From a virus, in the IMG/VR virus record IMGVR_UViG_3300038825_001249, positions 1-33,711 of that record: a DNA stretch of 33,711 nucleotides; one strand, written 5' to 3'. This document shows positions 14-33,711 of this stretch, piece by piece. The position numbers and the translations under genes are program-made. Below the pieces are notes generated by a model. It worked only from the letters and a program-made list of their open reading frames with translations, ran no database searches and was not told the DNA's origin. Position 1 is the first letter of the stretch, and each line of letters opens with the position of its first letter.

Positions 14-87
14 TTATATTGCCTAATCTAAATCTTTTGTTTCTTCGCAATTAACACATTCGTAATACTGTATTTGTTCGCACCCAA
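14..87. repeat. Terminal repeat, identical to 33638-33711
   Basis: These 74 bases recur at the right end of the window; with the conserved GG before them the identity is 76 bp (12-87 and 33636-33711). This is the overlap of a circular or circularly permuted genome. The bases before 12 differ from those before 33636, because the two copies of cassette A are preceded by different attC sites. Confidence 0.9.
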
Positions 88-214
88 ATTCATGATCAAA
101 GCTATCGTCCTTCAATCCCCATTCGTGATCACATTCACTTTGTTCAATCTGCGCTAGCTGTTCGTTATGTTCATTTAATTCTTGTTCGCTGTCTGCTATA
201 TAGTAATTTGGCAT
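23..214 (-). CDS. Cassette A protein: small acidic protein with Cys/His cluster
   Basis: This is a 63-residue acidic protein, the only gene in cassette A. An acidic N-terminal half is followed by a CDHEW motif (residues 28-32), SFDHEFGC, and then ECVNCEE near the end. Together these give four cysteines and two histidines that could bind one zinc ion. Small phage proteins with a similar C-x-H...SFDHEFG...C-x2-C pattern are familiar to me, but I cannot assign a function. The start ATG has a good AGGAG ribosome site about 11 bases upstream, inside the cassette. No promoter fits between the preceding attC and this start, so expression probably depends on leftward read-through from upstream phage genes. 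Confidence 0.75.
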   Translation of the reverse strand: MPNYYIADSEQELNEHNEQLAQIEQSECDHEWGLKDDSFDHEFGCEQIQYYECVNCEETKDLD

Positions 215-241
215 TCGCTTTTACTCCTATGTTTACGGCAA

Positions 242-302
242 ATATAACAACCGTAATTAAAATCTGACCAGCTAAAGCTGGCAGTTTATTACATGGTTAT
301 GT
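242..302 (+). other. attC-like recombination site of cassette A
   Basis: R'' is ATATAAC (242-248), followed by AACC, so the TAACAA hallmark is present. R' is GTTATGT (296-302) with crossover 296/297. The centre folds as CTG-A-CCAGCT (264-273) against AGCTGGCAG (275-283), leaving one extra A in the left arm. That is the position of the extrahelical base in classical attC sites. Bases 245-300 are identical to 33586-33641, the site of cassette Z. The R' bases 297-299 also serve as the stop codon of gene B. Confidence 0.75.
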
Positions 303-494
303 GTTTTTAATTCTAGCCGCTACATAGTCAACACATCTAATCATAGCCTTACGTCCGTCAATTATATTTTCCTCGCAATTAGGGTTGTGCTTACTTCGAT
401 CTACATGCCTCATTAATACTTCCATAATTGTGTTTATGGCGTGTAGCTCCTTGTCTTCTGTTTTAACTTCATAACTTTCTGTAACTGGTTCCAT
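297..494 (-). CDS. Cassette B protein, 65 aa, unknown function
   Basis: This is a small charged protein predicted to be mostly helical, with about 20 variable N-terminal residues followed by the segment LHAINTIMEVLMRHVDR. It has two cysteines and no recognisable domain. The start ATG at 494 has a strong GAGGAAG ribosome site. The TAA stop (297-299) is formed by the first three bases after the attC crossover, so the reading frame fills the cassette to its edge. I do not recognise the family. An antitoxin or a small phage accessory factor is possible but unsupported. Confidence 0.7.
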   Translation of the reverse strand: MEPVTESYEVKTEDKELHAINTIMEVLMRHVDRSKHNPNCEENIIDGRKAMIRCVDYVAARIKNT

Positions 495-602
495 ATCTTC
501 CTCACTATTTAAAAACTAACATAACAAAAACTTCAACGTGACAAAAACAGCTTGCCACTACGTGTCTTTTAACGCTGTTTTCGGCAACGTTAATATAAAA
601 GG
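297..602. mobile_element. Integron-like gene cassette B
   Basis: The cassette is 306 bp between crossovers 296/297 and 602/603. Start box GTTATGT (296-302) is the exact reverse complement of its R'' box ACATAAC (519-525). It holds one minus-strand gene and the attC at 519-608. Confidence 0.78.
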
Positions 603-608
603 TTAAAA
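519..608 (+). other. attC-like recombination site of cassette B
   Basis: R'' is ACATAAC (519-525), continuing AAAAACTTCAACG, which resembles the 5' half of classical attC sites. The right half contains GGCAACGTT, and R' is GTTAAAA (602-608), crossover 602/603. The arms pair as AACGTGACAAAAACAGC (535-551) against GCTGTTTTCGGCAACGTT (574-591), with mismatches and one unpaired base, around a 22-base loop. Confidence 0.72.
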
Positions 609-898
609 AGAATTAACTCCAACTCGCCTTTTCGTCTAAAAATATATCTGTGTCTTTTTGATTTAACCACTTTGTTTTCTTATGTCAGCATTGGCACTCA
701 AATCTGTTTCTAATGTGCCTGCGCCTTGTTCCTTTTTTATGTTCAGTCCATCGCTGGTGGTAGCTCGGTATATACTTATGCTTACCAAATAAACACATTA
801 TCAATCTAATCATATTTACCTCGTCAATTCATTTTTAACAACCCGCATAAAAGGAATTTAACTGTCGGTTCCCTCGGTTAAATCCTATTTGCTATGGG
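603..898. mobile_element. Integron-like gene cassette C2
   Basis: The cassette is 296 bp between crossovers 602/603 and 898/899. Start box GTTAAAA (602-608) is the exact reverse complement of R'' TTTTAAC (833-839), and the match extends to 8 bases. It carries one very short minus-strand gene (685-813) and the attC at 833-904. About 70 bp next to the left crossover are without a recognisable gene. Confidence 0.75.
685..813 (-). CDS. Cassette C2 protein: 42-aa basic peptide ending in C-x-C
   Basis: The ATG at 813 has a GAGG ribosome site 7 bases upstream, and the frame stays open for 42 codons to TGA. The protein is very basic, with EHKKGTRRRHIRNRF near the C-terminus, and ends in a CQC motif. 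It looks like a small nucleic-acid-binding or zinc-binding phage peptide, but I do not recognise it. It is the only plausible gene in its cassette. The cassette context and good ribosome site argue that it is real despite its length. Confidence 0.55.
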   Translation of the reverse strand: MIRLIMCLFGKHKYIPSYHQRWTEHKKGTRRRHIRNRFECQC

Positions 899-904
899 TT
901 ATGT
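833..904 (+). other. attC-like recombination site of cassette C2 (last site before phage backbone)
   Basis: R'' is TTTTAAC (833-839), continuing AACCCGC. R' is GTTATGT (898-904) with crossover 898/899. The central stem pairs GGA-A-TTTAAC (852-861) with GTTAAATCC (877-885), again with one extra A in the left arm. The outer parts also pair (AACCC against GGGTT). Beyond the crossover lies gene C, which has no intact attC of its own, so this is taken as the right border of the array. Confidence 0.73.
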
Positions 905-912
905 TGCCTAAA

Positions 913-1131
913 CTACATCAAGCCCATAACATTATTAAATAGCTTGCTGTTATCTTTTGATTTATAACCGACACCTAAAGCCCTCCTTTTGATTCCGGCC
1001 TTTCTGTTTCGGTCTGATGAAGCATGGCTGTTATTGTGGTATTTACCCCAACCGCGTTTTACATCAGCAACTTCAACCATTCGCTTTAAACCGCAACCAC
1101 AAGCACATGTTATTTCTGTTTTCTTTCCCAT
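913..1131 (-). CDS. Small basic protein with N-terminal C-x-C-x-C cluster
   Basis: This is a 72-residue basic protein. The N-terminus CACGCGLKR is followed by the segment VKRGWGKYHNNSHASS. The same cysteine cluster then 'Y/K-G-x-F/Y-x-(N/K)-SHA' layout occurs at the start of the NinG-like protein of this phage, where KCKCGCK precedes FFDKSHA. This suggests a shared small zinc or nucleic-acid-binding module. The gene lies just downstream of a terminator, so it needs read-through or a weak promoter. The ribosome site (GGGTGA, very close to the ATG) is poor. It sits at the backbone edge of the cassette array. Function unknown. Confidence 0.7.
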   Translation of the reverse strand: MGKKTEITCACGCGLKRMVEVADVKRGWGKYHNNSHASSDRNRKAGIKRRALGVGYKSKDNSKLFNNVMGLM

Positions 1132-1161
1132 ACATCACCCAGTCAATGAATACTTTTACCC

Positions 1162-1184
1162 AAAAAGCCGCAATTAAGCGGCTT
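1162..1184 (-). terminator. Rho-independent terminator after the early leftward operon
   Basis: Read on the minus strand, AAGCCGC pairs with GCGGCTT around a TTAATT loop and is followed by five Ts. It lies about 20 bases after the stop codon of the DUF2303 gene. It would end transcription of the recombination operon before the cassette array. Confidence 0.75.
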
Positions 1185-1205
1185 GATTGTCTTTCAAGTA
1201 AAAGC

Positions 1206-2024
1206 CTAGCCTTCACCGATAAAGGTTTTAAGCTCTGAATCTTTAAAAGCATCAACCAAAATTTCTTTAAACTCTTCAGCCATATCTTCTTCTTGTGCTT
1301 CAAGTCTAACAATTCGAAGGCTGATTTTAGGTCTATCACCACTCGTCAAGATGGAAACGCGAACCGTGAACGCTCGGTTATCTAATCCATGATAAGGATT
1401 ACAAGTAAATTCAATTATTGCCGGGATAATATCTTGGTTTTTAGCTTCTATTTTTTCCATTGCCGACATACTTTCACTAAAGTCACTTACCTTACTGTCA
1501 ACACTAGCCATTCTTTCAATGGTGATTTCACGAAGCTGTTTAACTGCTTGTTGAATACTCATTGATTTACCAGCTTTGCAAAGCACCTTGATATTACCAG
1601 CCCAATCTTCAACAAAGTTAGCCGCGTCTTTTTGATTAAGGTGTTCGCCGTTGACATTTAATAGTGCTTTGAACGCCGCCGTTTTATCAAGTTGGAGTTT
1701 AGCGTTGTGGCGTTGGTGAAGTGGGGCTTCTTCAGTACCAAGATCAAAGATTGTATTAGCTCGCATGTAATCAGAGTTAACGAAGCATTTAGCGCCTTCT
1801 TTGTCGAACTCTTTACAGTATTCGCCAAAGTCTTTAATTGACTTAGTAGCAAAAGAAAAGCGGTATGAATCACGCGTTGGCATGCTTGATTCAAGGTTGC
1901 TAACATCAAAGCCGCCGGGAACTACTAATAAATTTGATTTGGTATTAATTTTTGATAATTCTTCGTTTACATCGTTAAGTAAAACAGTTTTTTCTAAATG
2001 AGCAATCGCTTCTTTTGATAACAT
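1206..2024 (-). CDS. DUF2303 (YfdQ-like) phage protein
   Basis: The 272-residue protein matches the DUF2303 family found in prophages (E. coli YfdQ type). Supporting segments are HQRHNAKLQLDKTAAFKALL near residues 103-122, then the 'L-x-Q-x-x-A-x-F-V-E-D' signature (NQKDAANFVEDW), and a C-terminal beta-rich part. No catalytic residues are evident and the biochemical role of the family is not established. In this genome it is the last gene of the leftward operon with Bet and the YqaJ exonuclease, so a role in phage recombination or replication is a reasonable inference. Confidence 0.75.
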   Translation of the reverse strand: MLSKEAIAHLEKTVLLNDVNEELSKINTKSNLLVVPGGFDVSNLESSMPTRDSYRFSFATKSIKDFGEYCKEFDKEGAKCFVNSDYMRANTIFDLGTEEAPLHQRHNAKLQLDKTAAFKALLNVNGEHLNQKDAANFVEDWAGNIKVLCKAGKSMSIQQAVKQLREITIERMASVDSKVSDFSESMSAMEKIEAKNQDIIPAIIEFTCNPYHGLDNRAFTVRVSILTSGDRPKISLRIVRLEAQEEDMAEEFKEILVDAFKDSELKTFIGEG

Positions 2025-2088
2025 AATTTATATCTCTAATTAAAGTTTAAGTTGTGCCGGGAATAACCCGGCGTTTATTGATTAATGA

Positions 2089-2493
2089 TTAGTTTGCTAT
2101 ACGGCGAATATTTGATTTAACTTCACCAGTTTCTTTATCGATATTTTCAGCATCAAGGGCGAATTGCCCATTATCATCTTCTTTTGGTTGATTGATAGTA
2201 AGTTGACCGCCTTTGCCAACAAAAAAAGCTGTATCAGTAACATCTTCTTCAAACTTTTTACCGCGTTTAGTTGGGTTGCTGGTTGAAAGTTTATGTGAAA
2301 CGATAACTTGTTCATTATCGCCCATCTGTTGAAAAGTAAATTCAATCGTTACTTTTGCTTTTTTACTGCCGATACCGTGATTAAGTTGTGACATTGCCGC
2401 ATCACTTAAAGCCAATGCTAACTTGTCGTTTAAAATACCAGCGTTACATTCGCCGATAAAATCAGATACGTTTGTTTCTCTTTGATTTGACAT
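2089..2493 (-). CDS. Conserved phage protein of the recombination operon
   Basis: This is a 134-residue protein. The first 60 residues are predicted to be helical and then beta (KAKVTIEFTFQQM), and the C-terminus is charged and polar (NQPKEDDNGQF, IDKETGEVKS). It sits between the DUF2303 gene and the exonuclease, and similar small proteins often accompany DUF2303 in prophages. I see no catalytic motif. An accessory or DNA-binding role in recombination is possible. Confidence 0.65.
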   Translation of the reverse strand: MSNQRETNVSDFIGECNAGILNDKLALALSDAAMSQLNHGIGSKKAKVTIEFTFQQMGDNEQVIVSHKLSTSNPTKRGKKFEEDVTDTAFFVGKGGQLTINQPKEDDNGQFALDAENIDKETGEVKSNIRRIAN

Positions 2494-2555
2494 AATTGTA
2501 TTCTCCGTTGGTTTAAAAGTTGAACTATCTGGAAATTCCGGATAGTTCGATTAAA

Positions 2556-2867
2556 TTAATGTGTTGATGGTTCGGTTATTACATAAGCATAATTATCATC
2601 ACCAAGTTTATAAAACTTATAATGAGATCTGAAGTGATCGCCAAAGTCTGATAATCCTGCTCTTAATTCTGAAAGGTATTGTTCACTTGTTAATTCACAC
2701 TTGCGAACATGTTCAGTACAATAAGCTTTAACTTCACTTTCTGGCTTGTCTGACTTTACAGTGAACTCGCGGAAAGTATCGCCGTATCGTCTTTTTTGGC
2801 CTGAGTGAGTACATTCAACGTTATAACCGTTATCTTTGTGCTTTTCTGCCATTGGATCTTGAATCAT
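2556..2867 (-). CDS. Hypothetical protein in the recombination operon
   Basis: This is a 103-residue protein with three cysteines (CTHSGQKRRYG, AYCTEHVRKCEL) and an aromatic, tyrosine-rich C-terminal part. No family is recognised. The ribosome site before the first ATG is weak, and a second ATG five codons in could be used instead. Its place between the exonuclease and the DUF2303 group suggests a DNA-metabolism accessory role, which is inference only. Confidence 0.6.
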   Translation of the reverse strand: MIQDPMAEKHKDNGYNVECTHSGQKRRYGDTFREFTVKSDKPESEVKAYCTEHVRKCELTSEQYLSELRAGLSDFGDHFRSHYKFYKLGDDNYAYVITEPSTH

Positions 2868-2927
2868 AATATTTACTCAGTTTATTTGAAGTTTGGTGCC
2901 GTAATCAATTACGGCACCATTGGTTAA

Positions 2928-4679
2928 TTACTTGTATTTATTTAAAATTCTAAATAGGTCTTGATGTTGTGAGTTTATAACGTGATATTCTTCACACCAG
3001 AAATTAACCTCTCTAAGCATTTCTTCATGTGGTGTTAGTTCTTTTTTGGTAGTATAGCCGCCCGGTGCTTTAGTTTGCTTGGTTGGCTGTTCTTCCTGAG
3101 CATCAGCGAATGTTTCAGCTAGTCTTTGTTCAACTGTCTTTTGCTCTATTGCTGGATCTAAATAAAAATCTTTAGGGGAAATTCGCTTGCCATCTTGCAC
3201 AATGCCAGTACCAGTAATAACAGCATCTTCAATAACTTTTTCTTGCTCAGTTTTTTCTTTCTGCTCAGTTTCAATTTTAAGGCGTTCTTCATCGCGAATG
3301 CGTTTTTCCTCAGCTTCAATTTTAGCTTTTGCTTCACGTTCTGCTTTAACTTTTGCTTGGCGTTCGATTTCTTCTTTCTCTAAACGTTTACGCTCAGCTT
3401 CAGCTTTTTCATGTTCATTGATACGGGCTTTAATTAGATTGATAAGATCATCGTTATCTTTAAGCAATAACATAGCGTGATCACTAAATAAAAATCTATG
3501 GTCTTTTGCCAACTCAGACAAGCTATCTAAATTTTTACGGATAACTTGAGAAATTTCGTTTGCTTCAATTTTAGCATTAGCTAAAGAAGAATTAACCGCC
3601 TCTTCCATTTTTTCAAAGCTACGTTTACCCTTCATCACCGCTTCAAAGTCAACGACTACTTGAGTGATTTGAACCTTGTTTATGGTTTCGCTTAACTTGG
3701 CTAAATGCTCGTTAAAGGCTTTATAAGCGCTGTTAACAATAGAGGATTTCTTGGCTTCTTTGGCTTGCTTAACTTGCTTTTCACCATGCGATTGAAGCTT
3801 TTGAAGGATAGTATCGGCCTGACTAACAAAGCCATTGAATTCAGCGAGGCTTTCAAATTGCTTTTCAATATCGGTAGCTTGAGTTTTTAATGTTGCTCGA
3901 CCAGCCTTAACGTTTTTATTGAAAGCTTCTTTGTCGGCGAAGTCTTGATCAGTTTCAAGGACAAGTCTCATTTGCTCGTCAGCGAGTTGCTTTATTACCG
4001 GGATATATTCGCCTAAGTTTGAAACAACAAGCGAACCTTCAACGCTACATTTGATAACAGGAAAGCTTTCTTGTTCGTTAGCAATGATAACTTCTTTTTC
4101 TGCTTCAGGTTGATAATCAGCTAAATCTTTTTCGAATTGTTCCCAACCTAAAATTAAAGCCTTTCTTCTTTCGGGCATTGATTCATACCACATTGATTCA
4201 AAGTTTTCTTCTGTACCGTCACTAGTAACAAAAATTACTTTTTCAGCACCAGAAACTAAAAGCTGTTGTTCTAATTGCCAGTAGTAATGAGGCTCTAAAA
4301 TGTTGTTTTTAACATTTTCAGCTAAAGTTTTATTATAAAGCTTATGTTCAAAAGCAATATCCTCAAGCATTGTTAACCCATCAAAAGAAGCTAAAATTTT
4401 ACTGCTTTCTAAAACACCTGTTACCGGGTAAAGTTCATCACCAATTAATTTTTCAACAATTGGTCGAGCCATTTCTTCAGTTGCGTGGCCTTTATCAAAA
4501 ATCTTTTGTTGATGTGAAGAAACTGGCTTTGACTCACCCGTAAACTTCATTTTTAAAAGCTCATTGCGCCCCATGTACTTTGATTCATTCATCATTGCCG
4601 GGGCTTCACTTGCACCAAAGTTATTTAAACGTGTTGCTTTCCACTCTTCACTACCTTGAATTAAATTTAATGTAATCAA
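2928..4679 (-). CDS. YqaJ-type viral recombinase exonuclease with long coiled-coil extension
   Basis: The N-terminal 200 residues match the YqaJ/lambda-exonuclease family, which digests double-stranded DNA 5' to 3' so that an annealing protein can load. Visible motifs are GSEEWKATR (9-17), FGASE (21-25), KGHATEE (63-69), the metal-binding aspartate in ILASFDG (D100) and the E-x-K motif EHK (111-113), then a conserved YYWQLEQQL. Residues from about 330 to 470 are a highly charged coiled coil, making the protein (583 aa) much longer than a minimal exonuclease. The start is TTG, supported by an AGGAG ribosome site and by the first motif lying at residue 9; the first ATG (residue 29) would cut into the domain. 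It lies one base after bet. Confidence 0.9.
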   Translation of the reverse strand: MITLNLIQGSEEWKATRLNNFGASEAPAMMNESKYMGRNELLKMKFTGESKPVSSHQQKIFDKGHATEEMARPIVEKLIGDELYPVTGVLESSKILASFDGLTMLEDIAFEHKLYNKTLAENVKNNILEPHYYWQLEQQLLVSGAEKVIFVTSDGTEENFESMWYESMPERRKALILGWEQFEKDLADYQPEAEKEVIIANEQESFPVIKCSVEGSLVVSNLGEYIPVIKQLADEQMRLVLETDQDFADKEAFNKNVKAGRATLKTQATDIEKQFESLAEFNGFVSQADTILQKLQSHGEKQVKQAKEAKKSSIVNSAYKAFNEHLAKLSETINKVQITQVVVDFEAVMKGKRSFEKMEEAVNSSLANAKIEANEISQVIRKNLDSLSELAKDHRFLFSDHAMLLLKDNDDLINLIKARINEHEKAEAERKRLEKEEIERQAKVKAEREAKAKIEAEEKRIRDEERLKIETEQKEKTEQEKVIEDAVITGTGIVQDGKRISPKDFYLDPAIEQKTVEQRLAETFADAQEEQPTKQTKAPGGYTTKKELTPHEEMLREVNFWCEEYHVINSQHQDLFRILNKYK

Positions 4680-4680
4680 G

Positions 4681-5412
4681 TTATTCTCCTTTAATTGTTT
4701 TGATTTGATCTTTAGTTAAATTGCCTTTAGTGCTAACCATTGCAATTATTTCATCTGGTGTTTTTTTACCGCTTTCAATTGCCATTGACCATTTAGGGTA
4801 ATTAGCATCAAAATCTTCTTGGCTATATTCATTAATAACCTTTTCATCTTTTGGAGTTTCTTTTTCAACAACGCCAGCTTCTTCAAAACGTTCAGCTTCA
4901 TCAGGATCAATTATCCCACTAAAACCAAAAGCATAACGGGCGCATTGAATTGTTGCTTTATGGCGAAGCATACGAGCCGGAAACTTACCCCAAGGAGTTT
5001 TATTTTTATAGCGATCTTCTGTATCGCCTTGACACTCCGCCAAATACTCTATTACCTCAACAGGGTGTTTTCTGTCAGTACGAAACATTTTACAAGTAAC
5101 AGCCTTTAAACCTCCTTCACTATCAAAGCTATCTTCAAAAGACATACCGTCAAAGCTTGGGTGAGAATTGATTATTTTTAACCATCCATCAATTGAAACT
5201 ATTGGTTGAATGCCACCGCCTTTAGTTGGAAAAGCATAAATTTCTTTAGTTAAAGGGTTTAGTTTGTATTCGTTGGCAACCGCAATAAACACATTGAATT
5301 GTTCAACTGTTGGTTGTTGTTTTGATGGCATAACCGTATTTAACACGATATTTTCAAGCTCTTGAACATTCACTTTTAAGTGAGTTGCCATTTCTGTTAA
5401 TGCTGTTGTCAT
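4681..5412 (-). CDS. bet: Bet/RecT-family single-strand annealing protein
   Basis: The 243-residue protein matches the phage recombination protein Bet (Red-beta/RecT) family. The segment FNVFIAVANEYKLNPLTKEIYAFP, then QPIVSIDGWLKIINSHPSFDG and the CQGDTEDRYKNKTPWGKFPARM/LRHKATIQCARYAFGF blocks, are typical. It anneals complementary single strands made by the adjacent exonuclease during phage recombination. Its start overlaps the previous stop codon (TAATG), so the two genes are translationally coupled. Length and gene order (bet, then exonuclease) are standard. Confidence 0.93.
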   Translation of the reverse strand: MTTALTEMATHLKVNVQELENIVLNTVMPSKQQPTVEQFNVFIAVANEYKLNPLTKEIYAFPTKGGGIQPIVSIDGWLKIINSHPSFDGMSFEDSFDSEGGLKAVTCKMFRTDRKHPVEVIEYLAECQGDTEDRYKNKTPWGKFPARMLRHKATIQCARYAFGFSGIIDPDEAERFEEAGVVEKETPKDEKVINEYSQEDFDANYPKWSMAIESGKKTPDEIIAMVSTKGNLTKDQIKTIKGE

Positions 5413-5621
5413 TACTTAGTACCTTCTAAATAATTTTTAATTTCTGTATCTGATATGTGATCAAGGATTGTTTCAACGCCAACTTCTTTTATAAGTGAAG
5501 CCATTAATTCAAAGATACGAACATCTTCAAGCGTCATTTTAATATGTGGGTTATCTTCGCCGCGTTTTACCGGGCTTGTGCAAACTACTTGTTCACACTC
5601 TATTGCTAAAGTTTTATTCAT
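5412..5621 (-). CDS. Small early leftward protein, unknown
   Basis: This is a 69-residue protein, the first gene of the leftward early operon, starting some 40 bases below the predicted promoter. It has a central acidic-helical segment (LEDVRIFELMASLIKEVG) and no known domain. It overlaps bet by one base (TAATG). First genes in such operons are often host-takeover or regulatory peptides, but nothing in the sequence shows this. Confidence 0.65.
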   Translation of the reverse strand: MNKTLAIECEQVVCTSPVKRGEDNPHIKMTLEDVRIFELMASLIKEVGVETILDHISDTEIKNYLEGTK

Positions 5622-5658
5622 GTTGTTACCTATTTGCTTAGTTACTTGGACGATTTAA

Positions 5659-5686
5659 ATAATAGCATACCATTTCGATAAAACAA
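5659..5686 (-). promoter_or_regulatory. Putative early leftward sigma-70 promoter
   Basis: On the minus strand, TTGTTT (5681-5686) and TATTAT (5659-5664) are separated by 16 bases. A TG-plus-one-base just before the -10 gives an extended -10. It lies about 40 bases upstream of the first leftward gene. Confidence 0.5.
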
Positions 5687-5710
5687 CAATTAATTTTAAT
5701 TTATTTATAT

Positions 5711-5739
5711 TTGACAATTATAATAATTTAATTCATTAT
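5711..5739 (+). promoter_or_regulatory. Putative early rightward sigma-70 promoter
   Basis: A perfect -35 TTGACA (5711-5716) and CATTAT (5734-5739) are separated by 17 bases, about 30 bases before the regulator gene. The region between the two divergent promoters is very AT-rich, as expected for a control region. Confidence 0.6.
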
Positions 5740-5770
5740 TAGCCCAACTTAAACAAATAGAGTGATAAAA

Positions 5771-5980
5771 ATGGTTAATACTAATCTAGCAAAAATAGTT
5801 CAAGACGCGGCAAGAGATAAGGGTTTAAAAATAATGGAGCTTGACGAATTATGTGAAGATCTAATATACGCCCGTGTTTCTAAGGTTTGGCATGGCATTA
5901 GTTCTGCTAAGTTTTGTGATGTTGAATATGTTTTAGAAAAGCTTGATGTGAAAATTCATTTCGTTGTCAATAAAAAATAA
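5771..5980 (+). CDS. Small Cro/XRE-like regulator candidate
   Basis: This is a 69-residue, mostly helical protein, the first gene rightward from the divergent control region. The layout (helix LAKIVQDAARDKG, then LDELCEDLIYARVSKVWHG, then a beta-like VKIHFVV end) is compatible with a Cro-like helix-turn-helix, but the match is weak. An in-frame GTG at 5762 exists; the ATG at 5771 is preferred for start quality. Position and size suggest a switch or early regulator. It could also be an antirepressor. Confidence 0.5.
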   Translation: MVNTNLAKIVQDAARDKGLKIMELDELCEDLIYARVSKVWHGISSAKFCDVEYVLEKLDVKIHFVVNKK

Positions 5981-5981
5981 A

Positions 5982-6011
5982 AAATGCGCCGACCCTTCAG
6001 TAAGCGCATTT
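5982..6011 (+). promoter_or_regulatory. Stem-loop between regulator and initiator genes
   Basis: AAATGCGC (5982-5989) and GCGCATTT (6004-6011) form a perfect 8-bp stem with a 14-base loop. It starts right after the regulator's stop codon and ends 3 bases before the AAGGTG ribosome site of the next gene. With only TATT after it, a strong terminator is unlikely. It could attenuate transcription or protect an mRNA end. Confidence 0.5.
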
Positions 6012-6026
6012 ATTAAGGTGTATAAA

Positions 6027-6767
6027 ATGACTAAGAGAAAATCATTCATTATTCACATTGACAGTTTAAATATACTTGATGAACTAAGTGATGATCAAGC
6101 TGGTAAATTATTTAAAGCAATCAAAGCTCACCAGTTGGGTGATGAATTTGAATTCGATGCTTTAACGCGAATAGCTTTTTCACCATTTAAAAATCAGTTC
6201 AGTAGAGATGATGAAAAGTACATAAAGCTTTGTGAAAAGAACAGGTTAATAGCAGAAAAAAGGTATAGCACCAAACCTACCACTGGTGTTTCTGGTAACG
6301 ACTCGTTACCAAGTACCACCAAATCTACCGATAATGATAGTAAGAGTAAGAGTGATAGTAAGAATGATAGTGATAGTAATAGTAAAGAGATAGTAACTAA
6401 GTCAGCTAAAGCTAACCCTTCTTTCGAATTGTTTAAATATTGGTGTGACGTTATGGGTAAAAACATTTCAACCAGCAAACTAACTCCTAAACGTGACAAA
6501 GCAATCAAAGCCCGGTTGAAAGAAGGTTATTCATTTGAACAAATCAAAGAAGCTATTAACGGTTGCCGTAATGATCCGTTCTCCATGGGTCAAAACGACA
6601 GACAGAAAAAGTTTAATGATATTGAATTAATTTGTCGCAGTGGTGAAAAACTAGAAAGCTTCCTAGAAGTAACTGTTCAGCAAACAGGTAATAAGCGAGA
6701 TATAAACGCCATAGGTACTGATTTTTCAACAATACCTGAAGGCTTTAACCGTGAAAAACCTTATTAA
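6027..6767 (+). CDS. Replication initiator (O-like) with N-terminal DUF6291 domain
   Basis: This is a 246-residue protein in three parts. The N-terminal 75 residues (KRKSFIIHIDSL, LSDDQAGKLFKAIKAH, KNQFSRDDEKYIKLCEKNR) match DUF6291, which is common at the front of phage replication proteins. A linker of about 45 residues is nearly all S, D, N, K and T. The C-terminal domain (FELFKYWCDVMGK, LTPKRDKAIKARLKEGYS, NGCRNDPFSMG) resembles the C-terminal domain of phage replisome organisers that contacts the helicase loader. The start ATG at 6027 follows AAGGTG; an upstream in-frame start would overlap the regulator gene. The DnaC-like gene follows directly. Confidence 0.75.
   Translation: MTKRKSFIIHIDSLNILDELSDDQAGKLFKAIKAHQLGDEFEFDALTRIAFSPFKNQFSRDDEKYIKLCEKNRLIAEKRYSTKPTTGVSGNDSLPSTTKSTDNDSKSKSDSKNDSDSNSKEIVTKSAKANPSFELFKYWCDVMGKNISTSKLTPKRDKAIKARLKEGYSFEQIKEAINGCRNDPFSMGQNDRQKKFNDIELICRSGEKLESFLEVTVQQTGNKRDINAIGTDFSTIPEGFNREKPY
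6331..6392 (+). repeat. Degenerate AGTRAK/GATAGT-type hexamer tract inside the initiator gene
   Basis: About ten imperfect 6-base units (GATAGT, AAGAGT, AATGAT and similar) run in frame and encode the Ser/Asp/Lys/Asn linker between the two domains of the replication protein. Such tracts can gain or lose units by slippage without a frameshift. Confidence 0.7.
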
Positions 6768-6783
6768 TTAACTGGTGATCAAA

Positions 6784-7494
6784 ATGTCAGCAAAAGAAAT
6801 TTTAGCCAAAGCAATACACCTTGCTAAAACAGGGGGTTTAAAATATTCAGAAGAAGATTTACTTAGACTTCGTGAGCAAGGCGCTATTGAGGCCGCGAAA
6901 GCTTTTGATACTAGAAGGCATGAAGCGGCGGTTAACTCAATTGTGGGCCGCTCTGGAATCCTGCCAGTACACCAAAGGTGTTCACTTGATAATTTTATTG
7001 TAAATAACAAAGAACAAGCTGAAGCGCGTAATTTTGCAAAATACTACATTGATTATTTTAATACTAATAATGGTTCATGTTTTATTTTTTCCGGCAACAC
7101 TGGGACGGGTAAAAATCATTTGTCAGCGGCAATATGTAATTCATTAATGTCAATTGGCAAAAGATGCTTAATCATTACTATTTCAGAGTTAATGATCAAA
7201 ATGCGGAAGTGTTACGGTACTGATGCTGAATATTCTGAAGATGAATTTATTAAACAACTAATCAAATATGATTTATTAATAATTGATGAAATTGGCGTAA
7301 ACAAAGGTACTGATGCTGAAAAAATGCTTCTTAATCAAGTTGTAGATCAGCGTACCGGGAATTTAAAACCCGTTGGCATTTTAACGAATCTTGATGCTAA
7401 TGAATTAACCAAAATGTTAGGCCCTAGAATAATAGACCGATTAAAAGCCAATAACGGGCAATGGCTGTTTTTTAATTGGGGGAGTTACAGATAA
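6784..7494 (+). CDS. DnaC-like helicase loader (AAA+ ATPase)
   Basis: This is a 236-residue ATPase of the DnaC/IstB type that would load host DnaB helicase onto the phage origin. Walker A is GNTGTGKN (about residues 104-111) and Walker B is LLIIDEIG (about 164-171). A sensor-like TNLD follows, and the C-terminus has DRLKANNGQWLFFNW. Unlike many phage DnaC proteins there is no cysteine cluster in the N-terminal 70 residues. The start at 6784 is preferred over the in-frame GTG at 6775. It follows the initiator gene closely, the classic O-P arrangement. Confidence 0.88.
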   Translation: MSAKEILAKAIHLAKTGGLKYSEEDLLRLREQGAIEAAKAFDTRRHEAAVNSIVGRSGILPVHQRCSLDNFIVNNKEQAEARNFAKYYIDYFNTNNGSCFIFSGNTGTGKNHLSAAICNSLMSIGKRCLIITISELMIKMRKCYGTDAEYSEDEFIKQLIKYDLLIIDEIGVNKGTDAEKMLLNQVVDQRTGNLKPVGILTNLDANELTKMLGPRIIDRLKANNGQWLFFNWGSYR

Positions 7495-7775
7495 TGAAAT
7501 ACATAACAAACGTTCAAACCGATAAAGGCGTAAAACATATTATTGATTGTGGTAATGGCAACGAAGAAATACTTCAGCCCGAAGGAGTTTATCAATATGG
7601 TGATAAGAAAGGTCTTCCATTTTTCCAGCCTTTTTATGAACTAAAGGTTTTTAAAGATTTTACATTTATGTTTACAAGTAATTCTCACCGTTCAACGCAC
7701 TTAGCACAAATTGTTGTTGGTATAGAAAAAGTTAAATTCATTGTTGAGCATTTAAAAGGTAAAAACCATGAGTAA
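7494..7775 (+). CDS. Hypothetical early protein, 93 aa
   Basis: The ATG overlaps the stop of the helicase loader (TAATG) and has a strong GGGGGAG ribosome site. The protein is predicted to be beta-rich (YITNVQTDKGVKHIIDCGNG, FFQPFYELKVFKDF). No motif is recognised. Tight coupling with neighbours makes it a real gene; function unknown. Confidence 0.7.
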   Translation: MKYITNVQTDKGVKHIIDCGNGNEEILQPEGVYQYGDKKGLPFFQPFYELKVFKDFTFMFTSNSHRSTHLAQIVVGIEKVKFIVEHLKGKNHE

Positions 7776-7971
7776 AAAATTATTAGTAGAACAAGATTGT
7801 ATTATTGAACGCTTTAAAATAGTTGAAGATAAATCACCTTTACCTATTCTTGATGTTCAATTTGATGGTAAAAGCATTTCAATTGCTGATTTAGTTCATG
7901 TTGCTAATCAGCTGGCAAGTGCTTTGAATGATCGCGGTTGTTATTTTGAGGTGAAGAAAAATGGCTTGTGA
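7768..7971 (+). CDS. Hypothetical early protein, 67 aa
   Basis: It overlaps the preceding gene by 8 bases and the next by 11, typical of packed nin-like regions. One central helix (ISIADLVHVANQLASALND) follows a beta-like part. No known family. Confidence 0.65.
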   Translation: MSKKLLVEQDCIIERFKIVEDKSPLPILDVQFDGKSISIADLVHVANQLASALNDRGCYFEVKKNGL

Positions 7972-8188
7972 TATATGCGATAAAAAAGGAACTCCTTTAG
8001 AAGATATTGTTCCTGACTATCAAACTAAAGATATTAAGTGTGTTTGCGCTGAATGTGCCAGTAGAGTTAACGATCACTTATGGAAGTTAAGGGCAATGTC
8101 TCGAAAGCAAGAGAATGTTTTCTTAAAGCTTTTCATGAAAGAAAGAAAAGTTAATTTGGCAACAAGTGAGGTTGATAAAAATGCTTGA
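7961..8188 (+). CDS. Small zinc-ribbon protein (first of a pair)
   Basis: This is a 75-residue protein with CDICDKKG (residues 3-10) and CVCAEC (residues 28-33), giving a C-x2-C...C-x-C-x2-C zinc-ribbon arrangement, then a basic helix. It overlaps the next gene, which has the same layout. A DNA- or RNA-binding accessory role in the early region is likely but not shown. Confidence 0.68.
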   Translation: MACDICDKKGTPLEDIVPDYQTKDIKCVCAECASRVNDHLWKLRAMSRKQENVFLKLFMKERKVNLATSEVDKNA

Positions 8189-8381
8189 AGAAAGTGATTT
8201 TGATATTGATTGCCCCGGTTGCGATACACCAATAACAATTGAAAACGCTGGTGGTTACCGTTGCTTTTGTGAAAAGTGTGTTAGTGCAATGCCTTCAATC
8301 CCTAATGGTGGCCTTGGTTATAATATAACTGGTAAATACCCTGATTTTAAATGGGAGGTTAGCGAATATGAGTCAGACTAG
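8181..8381 (+). CDS. Small zinc-ribbon protein (second of a pair)
   Basis: This is a 66-residue acidic protein with CPGCD near residue 11 and CFCEKC near residue 28, the same cysteine spacing as the previous gene. The ATG at 8181 follows a GAGG ribosome site; an upstream in-frame GTG at 8166 is less likely. It overlaps the 3' end of its neighbour. The matching cysteine layout suggests an old duplication with strong divergence. Function unknown. Confidence 0.66.
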   Translation: MLEESDFDIDCPGCDTPITIENAGGYRCFCEKCVSAMPSIPNGGLGYNITGKYPDFKWEVSEYESD

Positions 8382-8592
8382 TTTTGATTTTCCATTAACT
8401 GAATTTGAAAAAGCAACAGCTGAACAATTAGTTTCTTATAAAATCGCTAAGAGTGAAAAAGAAACTGATGCAAGTGTAAAGCGTAGAATATCAGCTATGA
8501 TCAAAAGCGATAAATTAATAACTGAAGTTAAAGCGCTTGTTCATAAATGGAATAGCAAACGAATTAAATTAGGATTAAAGCCCTTTAAATAA
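8368..8592 (+). CDS. Small basic helical protein
   Basis: This is a 74-residue protein. An acidic N-terminus (FDFPLTEFEKATAEQL) is followed by lysine-rich helices ending KWNSKRIKLGLKPFK. It overlaps the upstream gene by 14 bases, with a GGGAGG ribosome site inside it. No family recognised. Confidence 0.65.
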   Translation: MSQTSFDFPLTEFEKATAEQLVSYKIAKSEKETDASVKRRISAMIKSDKLITEVKALVHKWNSKRIKLGLKPFK

Positions 8593-8618
8593 AAAAGCCT
8601 AACCGATTAAGGTTAGGC
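8591..8618 (-). terminator. Hairpin with U-tract on the minus strand
   Basis: GCCTAACC (8597-8604) and GGTTAGGC (8611-8618) form a perfect stem with a GATTAA loop. The run of six As at 8591-8596 makes it a good terminator only for leftward (minus-strand) transcription. No real leftward gene lies upstream of it, so it may block antisense transcription. On the plus strand it may just separate two gene groups. Confidence 0.55.
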
Positions 8619-8672
8619 GATCTTATTAACAACATGAAATACCACGTCCAAGCAGTGAAGGAACTATAACAC

Positions 8673-8843
8673 ATGAATAAAACAAGCGAAATAATAAAAA
8701 ACGAGTGTTGCGGAATTGGATTGCTCACAATTGAAAAAGAAGAATTAGTTAAGCAAGTTAAGACACTTGAAGCGGAAAAAGATTTTCTTGAAAACCAGCT
8801 TAAAAATGCAATAGCTAAAATACAAAGCGATAGCAAAAAATGA
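8673..8843 (+). CDS. Small coiled-coil protein, 56 aa
   Basis: The ATG at 8673 follows AAGGA by about 10 bases, and the stop overlaps the next start (ATGA at 8840-8843). The protein has a short N-terminus with a CC pair (NECCGIG), then a run of heptads (LVKQVKTLEAEKDFLENQL) typical of a parallel coiled coil. It may be an oligomerisation or inhibitor peptide. Not recognised, but the coupling supports it. Confidence 0.62.
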   Translation: MNKTSEIIKNECCGIGLLTIEKEELVKQVKTLEAEKDFLENQLKNAIAKIQSDSKK

Positions 8844-9283
8844 AAATTCAGATGATAAAAGAACCGGGCGGCTTGTTTCGTCCTGCTGATGATATGGAAT
8901 ATGAGAAAACAACCAAGTTTAAAACGGGTGAACCATATTTTGCAGAAATAAAACTTTCAAGAAATCCGGCATTTTTACGAAAAACAATGGTTTTCTTTCG
9001 TTTCTGTTTTGCTCATTGGAATGGTGACAACGTTTATGAGTTTTGCTCTCCAACAGAGCAATTCGAACGTTTTAGAAAAGATTTAACGATACTTGCAGGT
9101 TTTTATGTTCAAACGCCTAGGTTAGACGGAACATTAAGAACTGAAGCCGAATCATTGTCATTTGAAAATATGTCAGAAGAGCGCTTTCAGGAATGTTACT
9201 TAGCCTTGATTCGCGCATCGTTAAAACATATTTTTCACAATGCTGATGTAAACACTGAAAATCAACTGATGGGTTTTTTCTAA
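8840..9283 (+). CDS. DUF1367 phage protein
   Basis: The 147-residue protein matches DUF1367, a family found in nin-type regions of lambdoid and related phages. Typical segments are LSRNPAFLRKTMVFFRFCF near residue 38, then FERFRKDLTILAGFY (about residues 73-87) and the C-terminal YLALIRASLKHIF. Its biochemical role is not established. It is coupled by overlap to both neighbours and lies just before the NinG-like gene, as in other phages. Confidence 0.82.
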   Translation: MKIQMIKEPGGLFRPADDMEYEKTTKFKTGEPYFAEIKLSRNPAFLRKTMVFFRFCFAHWNGDNVYEFCSPTEQFERFRKDLTILAGFYVQTPRLDGTLRTEAESLSFENMSEERFQECYLALIRASLKHIFHNADVNTENQLMGFF

Positions 9284-9501
9284 TGATCACTTATAACGAT
9301 ATAGCAACAAGGGAAGATAAAATATTTCTTTCAAATGCCCGGCGATCACTTGGTAAACATAAATTTGAATCATTAATTCCAAAGGTTAAAGTTGTTTTTC
9401 GTGAAGCTTACAATGACGAGCCAAACGAAAATAAAAAAGAGAATATTGCAAGACGAGCGGCAAATATGATTTATACAACAGCCATTAATGAAAAGGTTTA
9501 A
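9283..9501 (+). CDS. Hypothetical protein between DUF1367 and NinG
   Basis: This is a 72-residue basic protein. It has an N-terminal YNDIATREDKIFL segment, then two helices rich in K, R and N. Its start overlaps the DUF1367 stop by one base (TAATG). No motif recognised. Confidence 0.65.
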   Translation: MITYNDIATREDKIFLSNARRSLGKHKFESLIPKVKVVFREAYNDEPNENKKENIARRAANMIYTTAINEKV

Positions 9502-9504
9502 AAC

Positions 9505-10137
9505 ATGCCAGTAGCAAAACTAAAATGTAAGTGTGGCTGTAAAAAATATCAGCTTCGTGAAAAGGTAGCAAAATACCCTTACGGCAACTTTTTCGACAAG
9601 TCACACGCGGATAAATGGATTGAGGATAAATATAAGCGCGATATAGCAAAGAAACTAGCGAAACTTAAGCAAGTAGCAGTTAAAGAAAAGAAAGCTTTTA
9701 ACAAAGAGACTAAGCGCCGAAAAGAAGCCATCAAAAAAAGAACGGGTGAAAATGGCTTTTATGACAACTTAAAAACTCAATTGCATAAATATATTAAGCA
9801 CGTACTTCGAAAAGGCGAACCATGTTATACATGCGGCAAACTTCAACGAGTAGGTGATTCAGGCCAAGCTTTTCACGTTGGTCATTTTATACCACAAAAG
9901 TCAGTTGATCCCCGGCGGTTTATGTTAATCAATTTAAGAATGCAATGTTACAAATGTAATACGCATAATTCAGGCATGAGGGCCGAATATAGACAGCGAT
10001 TAATTGAAGAAATTGGCCTTGAAAAAGTTGAATGGCTTGAATGTGACGCGAATCATAAAGAGCTAAAAGATCAATACCCTGAGATTTCCGATATAAAAGC
10101 AGAAACATCAAGGTATAGAAAGTTAGCCATAAAATAA
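9505..10137 (+). CDS. ninG: NinG/Rap-like recombination protein
   Basis: The 210-residue protein resembles lambda NinG (Rap), which binds and resolves branched recombination intermediates. It starts with a KCKCGCK zinc motif. A long lysine-rich helix (about residues 36-80) follows. The C-terminal half has an HNH-like zinc fold: C107/C110 (CYTC), H124 and H127 (HVGHFIP), C148/C151 (CYKC) and HNSG. NinG acts in the same recombination process as the Bet-exonuclease pair encoded leftward. It is the last gene before the strong terminator at 10144. Confidence 0.85.
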   Translation: MPVAKLKCKCGCKKYQLREKVAKYPYGNFFDKSHADKWIEDKYKRDIAKKLAKLKQVAVKEKKAFNKETKRRKEAIKKRTGENGFYDNLKTQLHKYIKHVLRKGEPCYTCGKLQRVGDSGQAFHVGHFIPQKSVDPRRFMLINLRMQCYKCNTHNSGMRAEYRQRLIEEIGLEKVEWLECDANHKELKDQYPEISDIKAETSRYRKLAIK

Positions 10138-29387: not shown

Positions 29388-29735
29388 TTATTTTCTTTTG
29401 GTTGGCTCCGTTCTTTTTAAGCCGTATTTACTAAGATAATTAGCATATCCTGACAGTGTGGCAATTTCACTTAAGCAAGCTTTCAAGTTTTCGATTTCAA
29501 TAGCTTGGCTTTCAAGTGTTACTTCAGGCTTTTTAACTTCGTCGGTTCCTTCATCAACAGCGCGATCAAACTTCATTGCTCGTAATTCAGCAACTTTTTC
29601 TTCATTAAGCTTGAAATCAGTAACAGCTTTATCAAAAAAGCTTTTTGCAACACCAATAGTTAATAACCCTTCATGGTCAAGCATTTGTTGGTTTATTTGT
29701 TTATGCGCTTTGTTTAGATTGCTTATTGCTGGCAT
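29388..29735 (-). CDS. Hypothetical helical protein, 115 aa
   Basis: A helical protein with an N-terminal segment HKQINQQMLDHEGLLTIG and an acidic middle (DEGTDEVKKPEVTLES). A good AGG ribosome site lies inside the end of the next gene, with a 35-base overlap. No motif recognised. Confidence 0.65.
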   Translation of the reverse strand: MPAISNLNKAHKQINQQMLDHEGLLTIGVAKSFFDKAVTDFKLNEEKVAELRAMKFDRAVDEGTDEVKKPEVTLESQAIEIENLKACLSEIATLSGYANYLSKYGLKRTEPTKRK

Positions 29736-29997
29736 TTCTTTTACCTCGTAGTTGCTTTTCAGCGTTAGTTAGTTTTTGATTGATTGATTTAATAGATGAA
29801 TTTTTCTTTGCTTCTTCGATTATATAAAAACGAATATCTAAAAATGTTTGTATCTGCAGTCCTACTTCTGAGAATTGCCCGGCAAGATTAGTTAAGCTTG
29901 AAGCGGCTTTTTCCATTTTGCCGCGTCTAACTAGCTCTATTGTTGTTTCAATAAGTTCATCAATATGATTGAACTTGCCTTTTATTTTATATGTCAA
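29701..29997 (-). CDS. Hypothetical helical protein, 98 aa
   Basis: A helical protein with basic ends: the C-terminus RGKRNASNKQSKQSA is strongly basic and the middle ETTIELVRRGKMEKAASSL amphipathic. It lies just downstream of the holin candidate. Function unknown; a DNA-binding or lysis-regulating role cannot be told apart. Confidence 0.6.
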   Translation of the reverse strand: MTYKIKGKFNHIDELIETTIELVRRGKMEKAASSLTNLAGQFSEVGLQIQTFLDIRFYIIEEAKKNSSIKSINQKLTNAEKQLRGKRNASNKQSKQSA

Positions 29998-30006
29998 TTG
30001 AAGCCC

Positions 30007-30372
30007 TTATTTGCTTTGTTTAGTGTTGGCATAGTTAACGCCAAAACTTGCACTTACTATTATTCCGAATAATGTGGTAATAGGCATAAATAAATCAGTT
30101 AACTTTGAAGTAGCTAAAACCATAGCGGTTTTATCGCCGAACCCGAAAAATTCACACGTTAGTAGCATCAAGGAAACAATCAAATATAGCTTGTACATTT
30201 GCGATACATCCTTAGACAAATCTCTTCGCATTTTTCCGTTTGGATCAAGCGCTTTAATTTTAAGAACTTTTGCTTCAGCGCTTTCTAAATCTGTTTCTAT
30301 CCATTCGGTTGCTATGTTTTCAATTGATTTAACTGCGTCACCAGTAAAGAATTTGATTATCTTGTCAAACAT
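30007..30372 (-). CDS. Holin candidate with C-terminal membrane segments
   Basis: This is a 121-residue protein with a charged N-terminal half and two hydrophobic segments (LYLIVSLMLLTCEFFGFG and LFMPITTLFGIIVSASFG). It has a GGGGGC ribosome site. Such topology, next to an endolysin-type peptidase, is typical of phage holins that open the inner membrane. The resemblance to three-segment holins is partial. It is one of two membrane proteins in the lysis region. Confidence 0.65.
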   Translation of the reverse strand: MFDKIIKFFTGDAVKSIENIATEWIETDLESAEAKVLKIKALDPNGKMRRDLSKDVSQMYKLYLIVSLMLLTCEFFGFGDKTAMVLATSKLTDLFMPITTLFGIIVSASFGVNYANTKQSK

Positions 30373-32488: not shown

Positions 32489-32601
32489 CGTCTAATCCGC
32501 GCAATTGCCGAAACAGCAAAATCATAATTAACTGTAAATATTAAAAATTCTGCGATTATGATTCCGTGTTTTTCTGGTTCGGCTTAACATTAGTGTTATG
32601 C
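32489..32601 (+). other. attC-like site at the left border of the array
   Basis: R' is GTTATGC (32595-32601), crossover 32595/32596, and the preceding GGCTTAACATTAGT is the classic right half of integron attC sites. The left half has CGTCTAATCC, where the R'' is degenerate (AAT instead of AAC), then CAATTGCCGAAACAG. The stem pairs CCGAAACAG with CTGGTTCGG, and AAAATCATAAT with ATTATGATT. It is longer (about 113 bp) than the other sites. No cassette start box matching its R'' is seen to the left. Confidence 0.72.
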
Positions 32602-32739
32602 GGATTTGCGTAACTCTGCTAGCGTAGCGTTAATTACATCATGCTCCGCTGGTGTCGCCCAGTATGGGCGCTTAACCTTGCCTTCTGCCTCGCGCCTTGA
32701 CTTTAGTTCAGCTTGGCGCTCTTTGTTTGATTTACTCAT
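32596..32739 (-). CDS. Cassette protein W: small basic, possible ribbon-helix-helix regulator
   Basis: This is a 47-residue basic protein. A Lys/Arg/Glu-rich N-terminus (SKSNKERQAELKSRREAEG) is followed by the segment KRPYWATPAEHDVINATLAEL. The 'R-x-x-W-(x)-T-x-x-E-H-x-x-(V/I)-x-x-x-L-x-x-L' layout resembles small CopG-type ribbon-helix-helix proteins. Its start overlaps the X stop (ATGA), and its TAA stop (32596-32598) is made of the first three bases after the attC crossover. It could bind the palindrome in the cassette promoter; that is inference. The DNA-binding assignment is tentative. Confidence 0.6.
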   Translation of the reverse strand: MSKSNKERQAELKSRREAEGKVKRPYWATPAEHDVINATLAELRKSA

Positions 32740-32984
32740 TTAATTTCCCACATCACACAAGCCTTTTCACCGTATCGAATATCACCAACCAAATCACAGT
32801 TAACGTCTTTCTTGCATTTCTCGGTAAAATAAAGCCCGTGAGCCATGTAAGTATCAAAGTGCTTGCACGAGTCACATCTCTTTTTTAACGGGTCACTGCC
32901 GCACTCTTTTTCGTGTTTTTCTATGCGTGATTTTACGTCTTTTTCATTGCAGAAATCACACTGGTAATAATTTAACTTTTTCAT
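32736..32984 (-). CDS. Cassette protein X: small cysteine-rich zinc protein
   Basis: This is an 82-residue protein from the ATG at 32984 (a TTG three codons earlier is possible). It has CDFC (8-11), then a C2H2-finger-like HEKEC, then CDSCKHF, CKKDVNC and a late cysteine (ACVMW), eight cysteines in all. This pattern fits small phage zinc proteins with an N-terminal C2H2-like finger. It lies between Y and W with a one-base overlap and a short gap. Nucleic-acid or protein binding is likely; function unknown. Confidence 0.68.
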   Translation of the reverse strand: MKKLNYYQCDFCNEKDVKSRIEKHEKECGSDPLKKRCDSCKHFDTYMAHGLYFTEKCKKDVNCDLVGDIRYGEKACVMWEIK

Positions 32985-32985
32985 T

Positions 32986-33165
32986 TTAGCCAACCTTCAT
33001 TTGACCTTTAAATTCACCTTCGTTTCTAGCGCCTTTAACCTCTAGCCCTTTCATCGCCCAATAATCAGAAAGCTTGGAAACTGCTTTTTCAAATGTTTCC
33101 GCTTCAATGTTTCGTGCGTTAACTCTGTTCTCGATTACGATGTAGCTAATATTAAAAGTATTCAT
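32986..33165 (-). CDS. Cassette protein Y, 59 aa, unknown
   Basis: This is a 59-residue protein and the first gene of the cassette operon, about 30 bases after the predicted promoter. The start ATG has GGAAG upstream. The layout is strand-helix-strand: NTFNISYIVIENRVNARNI, then AETFEKAVSKLSDYW, then basic KGLEVKGARNEGEFKGQ. It is not recognised; similar small strand-helix phage proteins exist. Its TAA lies just before the start of X. Confidence 0.65.
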   Translation of the reverse strand: MNTFNISYIVIENRVNARNIEAETFEKAVSKLSDYWAMKGLEVKGARNEGEFKGQMKVG

Positions 33166-33197
33166 TTTATTTCTTCCGTTGCGTTGTTGATGTAGTA

Positions 33198-33226
33198 ACT
33201 ATAATCTATCGTTAGCGCTAACGCAA
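33198..33226 (-). promoter_or_regulatory. Cassette promoter with perfect palindromic operator
   Basis: On the minus strand TTGCGT (33221-33226) and TATAGT (33198-33203) are separated by 17 bases, with gene Y about 30 bases downstream. The spacer and -35 are overlaid by the perfect 14-bp palindrome CGTTAGCGCTAACG (33210-33223), a likely repressor operator. The cassette's own protein W is the obvious candidate binder. Confidence 0.65.
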
Positions 33227-33254
33227 GTATTAAAGTGAAATAATTTGAATATCC

Positions 33255-33327
33255 GCATAACAAGGTTTTCAAAGCGGACACATTACAGCGTGCCGCTTTC
33301 ATTTAGCCGTTTAAAACGAGGTTAGCA
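33255..33327 (+). other. attC-like recombination site of the Y-X-W cassette
   Basis: R'' is GCATAAC (33255-33261), followed by AAGGTTTTC, closely like chromosomal-integron attC sites. R' is GTTAGCA (33321-33327), crossover 33321/33322. The stem pairs AAAGCGG-A-CAC (33271-33281) with GTGCCGCTTT (33290-33299), with one extra A in the left arm. The last 13 bases before the crossover are repeated at 1-13, joined there to cassette A. Confidence 0.82.
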
Positions 33328-33637
33328 GGAATTACTTAATCGCTAAACCACTCGTAATTATCATCGAAAAACTCTTTAGCAACTAACCACATATCTGTTG
33401 CATCTTTGTCATTAAAGGCAATCATATCGCCTTTTTTAGGGCTTCCGTTTTTCTTGTCTGCTTCTGATATACTTACCAAGTCAATAGGTAATCCTTCAAC
33501 CCAAGGCGTCATTTCTTGTAAATATTTCTTTTTGTAAAATGCCATTTTCTTCTTCTCCATTAATGTGGTGCTAGCAATTCACTGCTAACAACCGTAATTA
33601 AAATCTGACCAGCTAAAGCTGGCAGTTTATTACATGG
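33322..33637. mobile_element. Integron-like gene cassette Z (absent from the junction at base 13/14)
   Basis: The cassette is 316 bp between crossovers 33321/33322 and 33637/33638. Start box GTTAGCA is the exact reverse complement of its R'' TGCTAAC (33583-33589). It holds one minus-strand gene and the attC at 33583-33643. The window's left end shows the neighbouring sites joined without it, so it is probably variable in the population. Confidence 0.82.
33336..33545 (-). CDS. Cassette Z protein: small conserved phage-type protein
   Basis: This is a 69-residue protein starting at the ATG at 33545, which has a GGAGAAG ribosome site; an ATG five codons upstream overlaps this site. The pattern is M-A-F-Y-K-K-K, then TPWVEGLPIDLVSISEADKK, KKGDMIAFN, and DMWLVAKEFFDDNYEWF. 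'GDMIA-x-N...D-x-W-(L/Y)-V-x-x-(E/Q)-(F/Y)-F-x-x-N-(Y/F)-E' is a pattern I know from small phage proteins of unknown function. A phage-type gene in a cassette suggests that cassettes circulate among phages. Confidence 0.72.
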   Translation of the reverse strand: MAFYKKKYLQEMTPWVEGLPIDLVSISEADKKNGSPKKGDMIAFNDKDATDMWLVAKEFFDDNYEWFSD

Positions 33638-33643
33638 TTATAT
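33583..33643 (+). other. attC-like recombination site of cassette Z
   Basis: R'' is TGCTAAC (33583-33589), followed by AACCG. R' is GTTATAT (33637-33643), crossover 33637/33638. Bases 33586-33641 are identical to 245-300, the attC of cassette A. The central stem CTG-A-CCAGCT/AGCTGGCAG carries the extra left-arm A. Only the R boxes at the edges differ, each matching its own cassette. Confidence 0.8.
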
Positions 33644-33711
33644 TGCCTAATCTAAATCTTTTGTTTCTTCGCAATTAACACATTCGTAATACTGTATTTG
33701 TTCGCACCCAA
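33638..33711. repeat. Second copy of cassette A start (closes the circle)
   Basis: Identical to 14-87, and part of gene A on the minus strand (cut off by the window end). Here cassette A follows the attC of cassette Z, whereas at the left end it follows the attC of the Y-X-W cassette. Confidence 0.9.

Follow-up and report, generated by a model that had tools for sequence, protein, structure and literature searches.

A tailed phage of 33.7 kb from IMG/VR, whose whole record of 33,711 nucleotides is called the window here, carries five gene cassettes, each with its own attC-type site. With a probability of roughly 0.8, these form a cluster of attC sites lacking an integrase (CALIN), whose cassettes are mobilized by an integrase supplied in trans, by the host or by a co-infecting phage. 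A cluster of this kind inside a phage had been proposed in an earlier note on this DNA, and the covariance model, covariation, box motifs and polarity described below support it. The terminase is nearest to that of Burkholderia phage BcepC6B (49%), and the genome also encodes head-tail and head proteins, a RecT annealase (4681-5412) and a YqaJ exonuclease (2928-4679). Searches of the phage with the IntI model TIGR02249 and with Phage_integrase (PF00589) returned neither an integron integrase nor a tyrosine recombinase; the note, too, had found no integrase gene. The intI gene of a complete integron is thus absent, and the array has five sites in about 2 kb, of which one was recognized by model and four by homology. 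Because the record contains no integrase, the enzyme would have to act in trans.

Seventy-six bases are common to both contig ends, so the halves of the array at the two ends represent one locus. Through this join, the order on the plus strand is an anchor with its crossover at 32595|32596, cassettes 1 to 5 each with its own attC, and the gene at 913-1131; the five cassettes across the contig ends are those of the earlier note. All attC polarities are plus and all cassette genes lie on the minus strand. Cassette 1 (32596-33321, crossover to crossover) holds genes at 32596-32739, 32736-32993, 32986-33165 and 33162-33302, the last of which starts inside attC 1 (33255-33327; R'' GCATAAC, R' GTTAGCA; crossover 33321|33322). 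Cassette 2 (33322-33637) has one gene (33336-33560) and attC 2 (33583-33643; crossover 33637|33638). The start of cassette 3 (33638-33711) is repeated at 14-87 within the 76-base end overlap. Complete from crossover to crossover, this cassette spans 14-296 and contains a gene (23-214) with a homologue in the viral contig L190. Its attC 3 (242-302; crossover 296|297) forms a hairpin nearly identical to that of attC 2. In cassette 4 (297-602), the gene at 297-494 has its stop codon in the core TTA, and attC 4 occupies 519-609 with a crossover at 602|603. The right end of this site is defined by its copy in L193, by which ends at 595 for the attC and at 589 for the cassette were rejected. Cassette 5 (603-898) has a sole ORF of 42 aa (685-813) and ends with attC 5 (833-904; crossover 898|899). 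The first phage gene past the array (913-1131) lies on the same strand as the cassette genes and has a weak match to phrog_22491.

The core boxes of attC sites follow the patterns RYYYAAC (R'') and GTTRRRY (R'). At the five sites, R'' reads xxxTAACAA and R' begins with GTTA; TAACAA and GTTA are present in 5/5 and the outer box letters vary as in any array. Arm alignments and covariation over 31 phage sites reveal an imperfect hairpin with L'' and L' arms and with extrahelical bases in the R''-side arm. The sites were scored with a covariance model, R1, trained on 21 canonical attCs from known integrons (the class 1 array of a P1 phage, Vibrio phage p16, Shewanella M16-3, Tetrasphaera phage TJE1 and a Paraglaciecola MAG (two)). 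As a control, R1 detected 42 sites in known integrons, TJE1 and PH101. Over the whole window, attC 1 scored 32.3 bits on the plus strand only (E=1.6e-5, R1 being a model built for the present analysis, not that of IntegronFinder, with rough E-values). The other four sites scored weakly without filtering, at 7-13 bits, with the plus strand always above the minus: 10.7 against 6.6 bits for attC 2, 12.6 against 10.6 for attC 3 and 12.4 against 3.9 for attC 5, a close copy of which in L252 reached E=0.016. Taken alone, the R1 scores of attC 2 to 5 would not suffice, and an attC finder run with ordinary thresholds might list just one of the sites. The earlier note had counted six attC-type sites, to be checked with a covariance model; five of them hold, the one at 33255 by a clear hit and the other four, with these low scores, through homology to sites in other arrays, and the leftmost one gave a trivial match.

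Other properties of the sites point in the same direction. The hairpins at 33583 and 242 have a z-score of -3.8, better than all 200 shuffles. Each of the five attCs recurs in other viral contigs with 93-99% identity over 56-86 bases. Site 1 has a copy in L206 (98.6% over 70 bases), the type shared by attC 2 and attC 3 occurs in L083 and L193 with 56 bases of attC 2 identical in L083, attC 4 is found in L193 (93% over 86 bases), and attC 5 in L083 (98.7% over 77 bases, with an identical stretch of 72 bases) and in L252. When 31 distinct phage sites were aligned by sequence only, 85 cells had changed on both pairing sides, against 38.6+/-4.9 in shuffles. The covariation score was 0.320, against 0.122 in shuffled alignments and at most 0.143 in slid registers; the R''/R' pairs are uninformative in this respect because they never vary. 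Together, the R1 results, the pairing covariation, the core boxes and the polarity of the extrahelical bases support the assignment of the five sites to the attC family. An Rfam scan yielded no family match, a BLASTN comparison of the array with 50,697 annotated phages gave no match, and an attC of L204 had no real match. A search for repeats returned nothing beyond those expected by chance.

The leftmost of the proposed attCs (32489-32601) was rejected, its R1 hit of 10.7 bits being just a trivial 20-nt match. What lies at this edge is a conserved plus-strand motif at 32572-32600, TTCGGCTTAACATTAGTG|TTATGC, with the crossover at 32595|32596 and a TTA that serves as stop codon of the first cassette gene. 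The motif, ending in AGTG|TTA, is kept at the array edge where the first cassette gene ends in about ten phages (L099, L252, L138, L204, L205, L207 and L134, and more loosely L208, L083 and L206). G|TTA also forms the distal border of the arrays in L099 and L252, before the same ssb-like gene. These features suggest that the anchor could be an attI-like acceptor. No copy was found beside an intI gene, and the pattern matches inspected in 395 genomes of the order of the Paraglaciecola MAG (G006) lay in housekeeping genes. The anchor as a host attI in these genomes was rejected, since the inspected matches fall within ordinary chromosomal genes and are due to chance. In the viral contig L247, an ACATG|TTA core directly upstream of intI supplies the TTA in which the first cassette gene ends.

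Several junctions suggest that these sites are mobile. In contig bases 1-13, GTTTAAAACGAGG, cassette 3 directly follows the right end of attC 1, the two meeting at G|TTA and cassette 2 being skipped. At the other contig end, cassette 3 is joined to the attC of cassette 2, so that both junctions occur in one assembly, the former as read from 11-13 contig-end bases of that assembly. The contig ends do not form a plain terminal repeat, since bases 1-11 derive from the attC at 33255-33324. At a contig end of the L208 phage, a late attC is likewise followed by the sequence of an earlier cassette, with identity over 108 bases from TTA on. The left 150 bases of cassette 1 are found twice in L205, at 90-91% identity, behind two other attCs. 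The homology begins exactly at the crossover G|TTA, with three different left neighbours in all. L099, which is related by its flanking genes (61-65%), and L252, related by gene order and sequence, carry other cassettes at the same locus. With the 37.6-kb L083 phage, the attC sequence alone is common at the DNA level. In the Paraglaciecola MAG, one cassette start is joined to the intI contig and, on a second contig, to a different attC, with the switch exactly at G|TTA. The alternative junctions, the common cassettes bounded by G|TTA and the varying contents of the locus support mobility of the sites, as judged from these assemblies. The exchange route suggested in the earlier note is supported to this extent among phages, and is probable with host integrons.

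Other explanations fit parts of these data. The attCs could be genuine and the cassettes acquired long ago, forming a relic now immobile in this phage. The lack of an integrase in the record and the weak R1 scores of four sites agree with such a relic; alternative junctions inside one assembly, sites 97-100% identical in unrelated phages and differing cassettes at one locus in relatives do not, and we consider it improbable. Genes might also be swapped without any integrase, by homologous exchange at attC repeats identical over 55-77 bases through the RecT and YqaJ proteins that the phage encodes, and long identical attC stretches are indeed common to phages. Annealing, however, would put breakpoints within the repeats. 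The contig-start junction joins two different attCs with GGTTA alone in common, which argues against RecT annealing, and the cassette shared with L205 stands behind three unrelated left neighbours with homology from G|TTA, so that this mechanism appears quite unlikely.

The hairpins could instead be RNA elements, such as processing sites, terminators or translational controls, and no DNA recombination sites at all. They lie between co-oriented genes, it is the gene-sense strand that folds, and several ORFs have their start within a hairpin. Such elements would hardly account for the invariant TAACAA and GTTA boxes, the polarity of the extrahelical bases, the match by a model trained solely on recombination sites or the breakpoints at G|TTA, and sites of PH101 recombine with IntI1 according to the available text of PMC9892861. 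This is the least probable of the explanations and a very unlikely one, and the hairpins may have an RNA role in addition to recombination.

In the canonical cassette, the gene is co-oriented with its attC, and its stop codon adjoins the R'' (TAACAA) side. Every cassette gene of this phage starts on the R'' side and ends at the R' core, on the strand opposite to the attC, so none has the canonical orientation. This inversion was absent from the earlier note and is the more novel feature of the array; no description of a class of phage cassettes with reversed genes was found in the open literature searched. By the longest ORF between neighbouring sites, 28 of 30 phage cassettes have their gene opposite to the attC, against 1 of 13 cassettes from known integrons, figures in which the number and orientation of the sister arrays give no unbiased census, since these were mostly found by attC patterns of this family. 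Both exceptions among the phage cassettes are overlapped by good reverse ORFs. Opposite orientation was also seen in PH101, L252, L134, L193, L190, L154 and the IntI-bearing L247, and the phage arrays identified by homology in this analysis all have genes inverted relative to the attC. L213/L227 was left out as a phage array, as it may belong to the chromosomal integron of the MAG. That integron (L226 13248-13825 and L227, contigs C109 and C80 of G006) begins with a cassette of normal orientation, and its second cassette is inverted; the neighbour of the latter recurs on another contig, where the sequence changes precisely at G|TTA.

ORFs starting inside an attC were found in L205 (8258-8548), L207 (526-747), L252 (2268-2513) and L083 (3143-3490), so that the attC encodes an N-terminal leader. 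In L205 and L207, the leader PTVSNPVEAVV stands before different bodies, and a lipoprotein-like leader derives from the attC in L205 and L252. Cassettes of the sister arrays in L083, L204, L206, L207, L099 and L247 encode N6/N4, D12 and C5 DNA methyltransferases and a Mom protein, which suggests that the cargo gives protection from host restriction. The methyltransferases of L083, L204 and L206 have nearly identical C-termini and differ in other parts. For the cassette proteins of the present phage itself, the searches assigned no function. The cassette 2 protein of the present phage has an 80% homologue at L138 8103-8312, encoded by an ordinary phage gene just outside the array of L138 and not by a cassette, a hint that phage genes become cassettes.

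In the mechanism that we propose for the CALIN, the fixed anchor at 32595|32596 would act like an attI, at which cassettes with their attCs have been inserted successively. The substrate for recombination would be each attC folded as its bottom strand, which is the minus strand of the window, and the integron integrase would come from the infected host or from a co-infecting phage that bears one. Cuts at G|TTA would allow phages to take up and lose cassettes and to exchange them with one another and, probably, with host integrons. Each inverted gene starts beside or inside an attC and has its stop codon at, or close to, the TTA of the following core; the cassette genes thus run with the leftward operon of the phage and not away from an attI-side promoter. 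A likely reason is that the array is read from its distal end, as part of that operon, which would leave only inverted genes expressed. The cargo would be accessory, with anti-restriction functions suggested by the sister arrays.

Candidate sources for the integrase can be named. In a plausible host genus, that of the Paraglaciecola MAG, 18 of 22 genomes have an integron integrase; the attC 5 sequence was absent from 395 genomes of the order, and the cassette 2 protein had no match among 296 genomes of the order. The intI gene was also found in a few viral contigs. L247 (IMGVR_UViG_3300044698_000406, positions 1-9628) has an IntI gene at 6001-6942 (plus), attCs on the minus strand and cassette genes on the plus strand (a C5 methylase, a DUF5131 protein and a PAPS-reductase-like protein), and appears to be a phage integron that combines inverted cassettes with an IntI of its own.

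A wider proposal can be advanced only tentatively. Marine phages might maintain an integron class of their own, made of a phage attI-like anchor and inverted cassettes, in which the attC is a 5' module that in some cases gives the ribosome site, start codon and N-terminal leader. As the recombinogenic strand would be the coding strand of the operon, cassettes could be shuffled by a borrowed integrase in step with infection, and a phage-wide pool of counter-defence genes might also feed host integrons. Independently of this proposal, the recurrence of these sites and of some cassettes in unrelated marine phages points to gene exchange in a network of phages and possibly their hosts. The consistent gene inversion offers a simple signature for finding such arrays, and raises the question of the origin of reversed cassettes in bacterial integrons.

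Attention has already been given to phage CALINs in TJE1, PH101 and P12002L (Qi et al. 2023, PMC9892861). As described in the available text of that paper, they are the same kind of integrase-less attC array with accessory genes such as methyltransferases, and IntI1 recombined the PH101 attCs in assays, the bottom strand better than the top. By the present scan, PH101 has its genes opposite to the attCs, as in this phage, whereas TJE1 has the normal orientation. Gene inversion, a phage attI-like anchor, cassettes common to unrelated phages and alternative junctions do not figure in the available text of PMC9892861. Phage attC clusters were thus previously known, mostly as isolated cases; here, attCs and cassettes are common to otherwise unrelated phages, occupy a fixed locus with changing contents and have crossover-exact alternative junctions. 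The common sites and cassettes with exact junctions provide a testable case that phages swap accessory genes, often for DNA modification, with a borrowed integrase.

Sedentary chromosomal integrons of Vibrio, Shewanella and Paraglaciecola have the same attC structure, extrahelical-base polarity and G|TTA crossover, and they also carry small unknown genes with one attC per cassette. In contrast to them, the present array has no intI in cis, its genes are inverted and it lies inside a phage operon. In spirochaete integrons, intI is reversed (mentioned in PMC9668308); there the integrase gene is turned, whereas here the cassette genes are, and intI of L247 has the usual direction relative to the attCs. 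Single reversed cassettes exist in ordinary integrons, for example at 29527-30195 (minus) in Vibrio phage p16 (L210) and in the second cassette of G006 (L226). The p16 gene, the sole inverted one among the tested cassettes, encodes a methyltransferase. Reversed cassettes are a minority in ordinary integrons and the rule in this array and its sister arrays.
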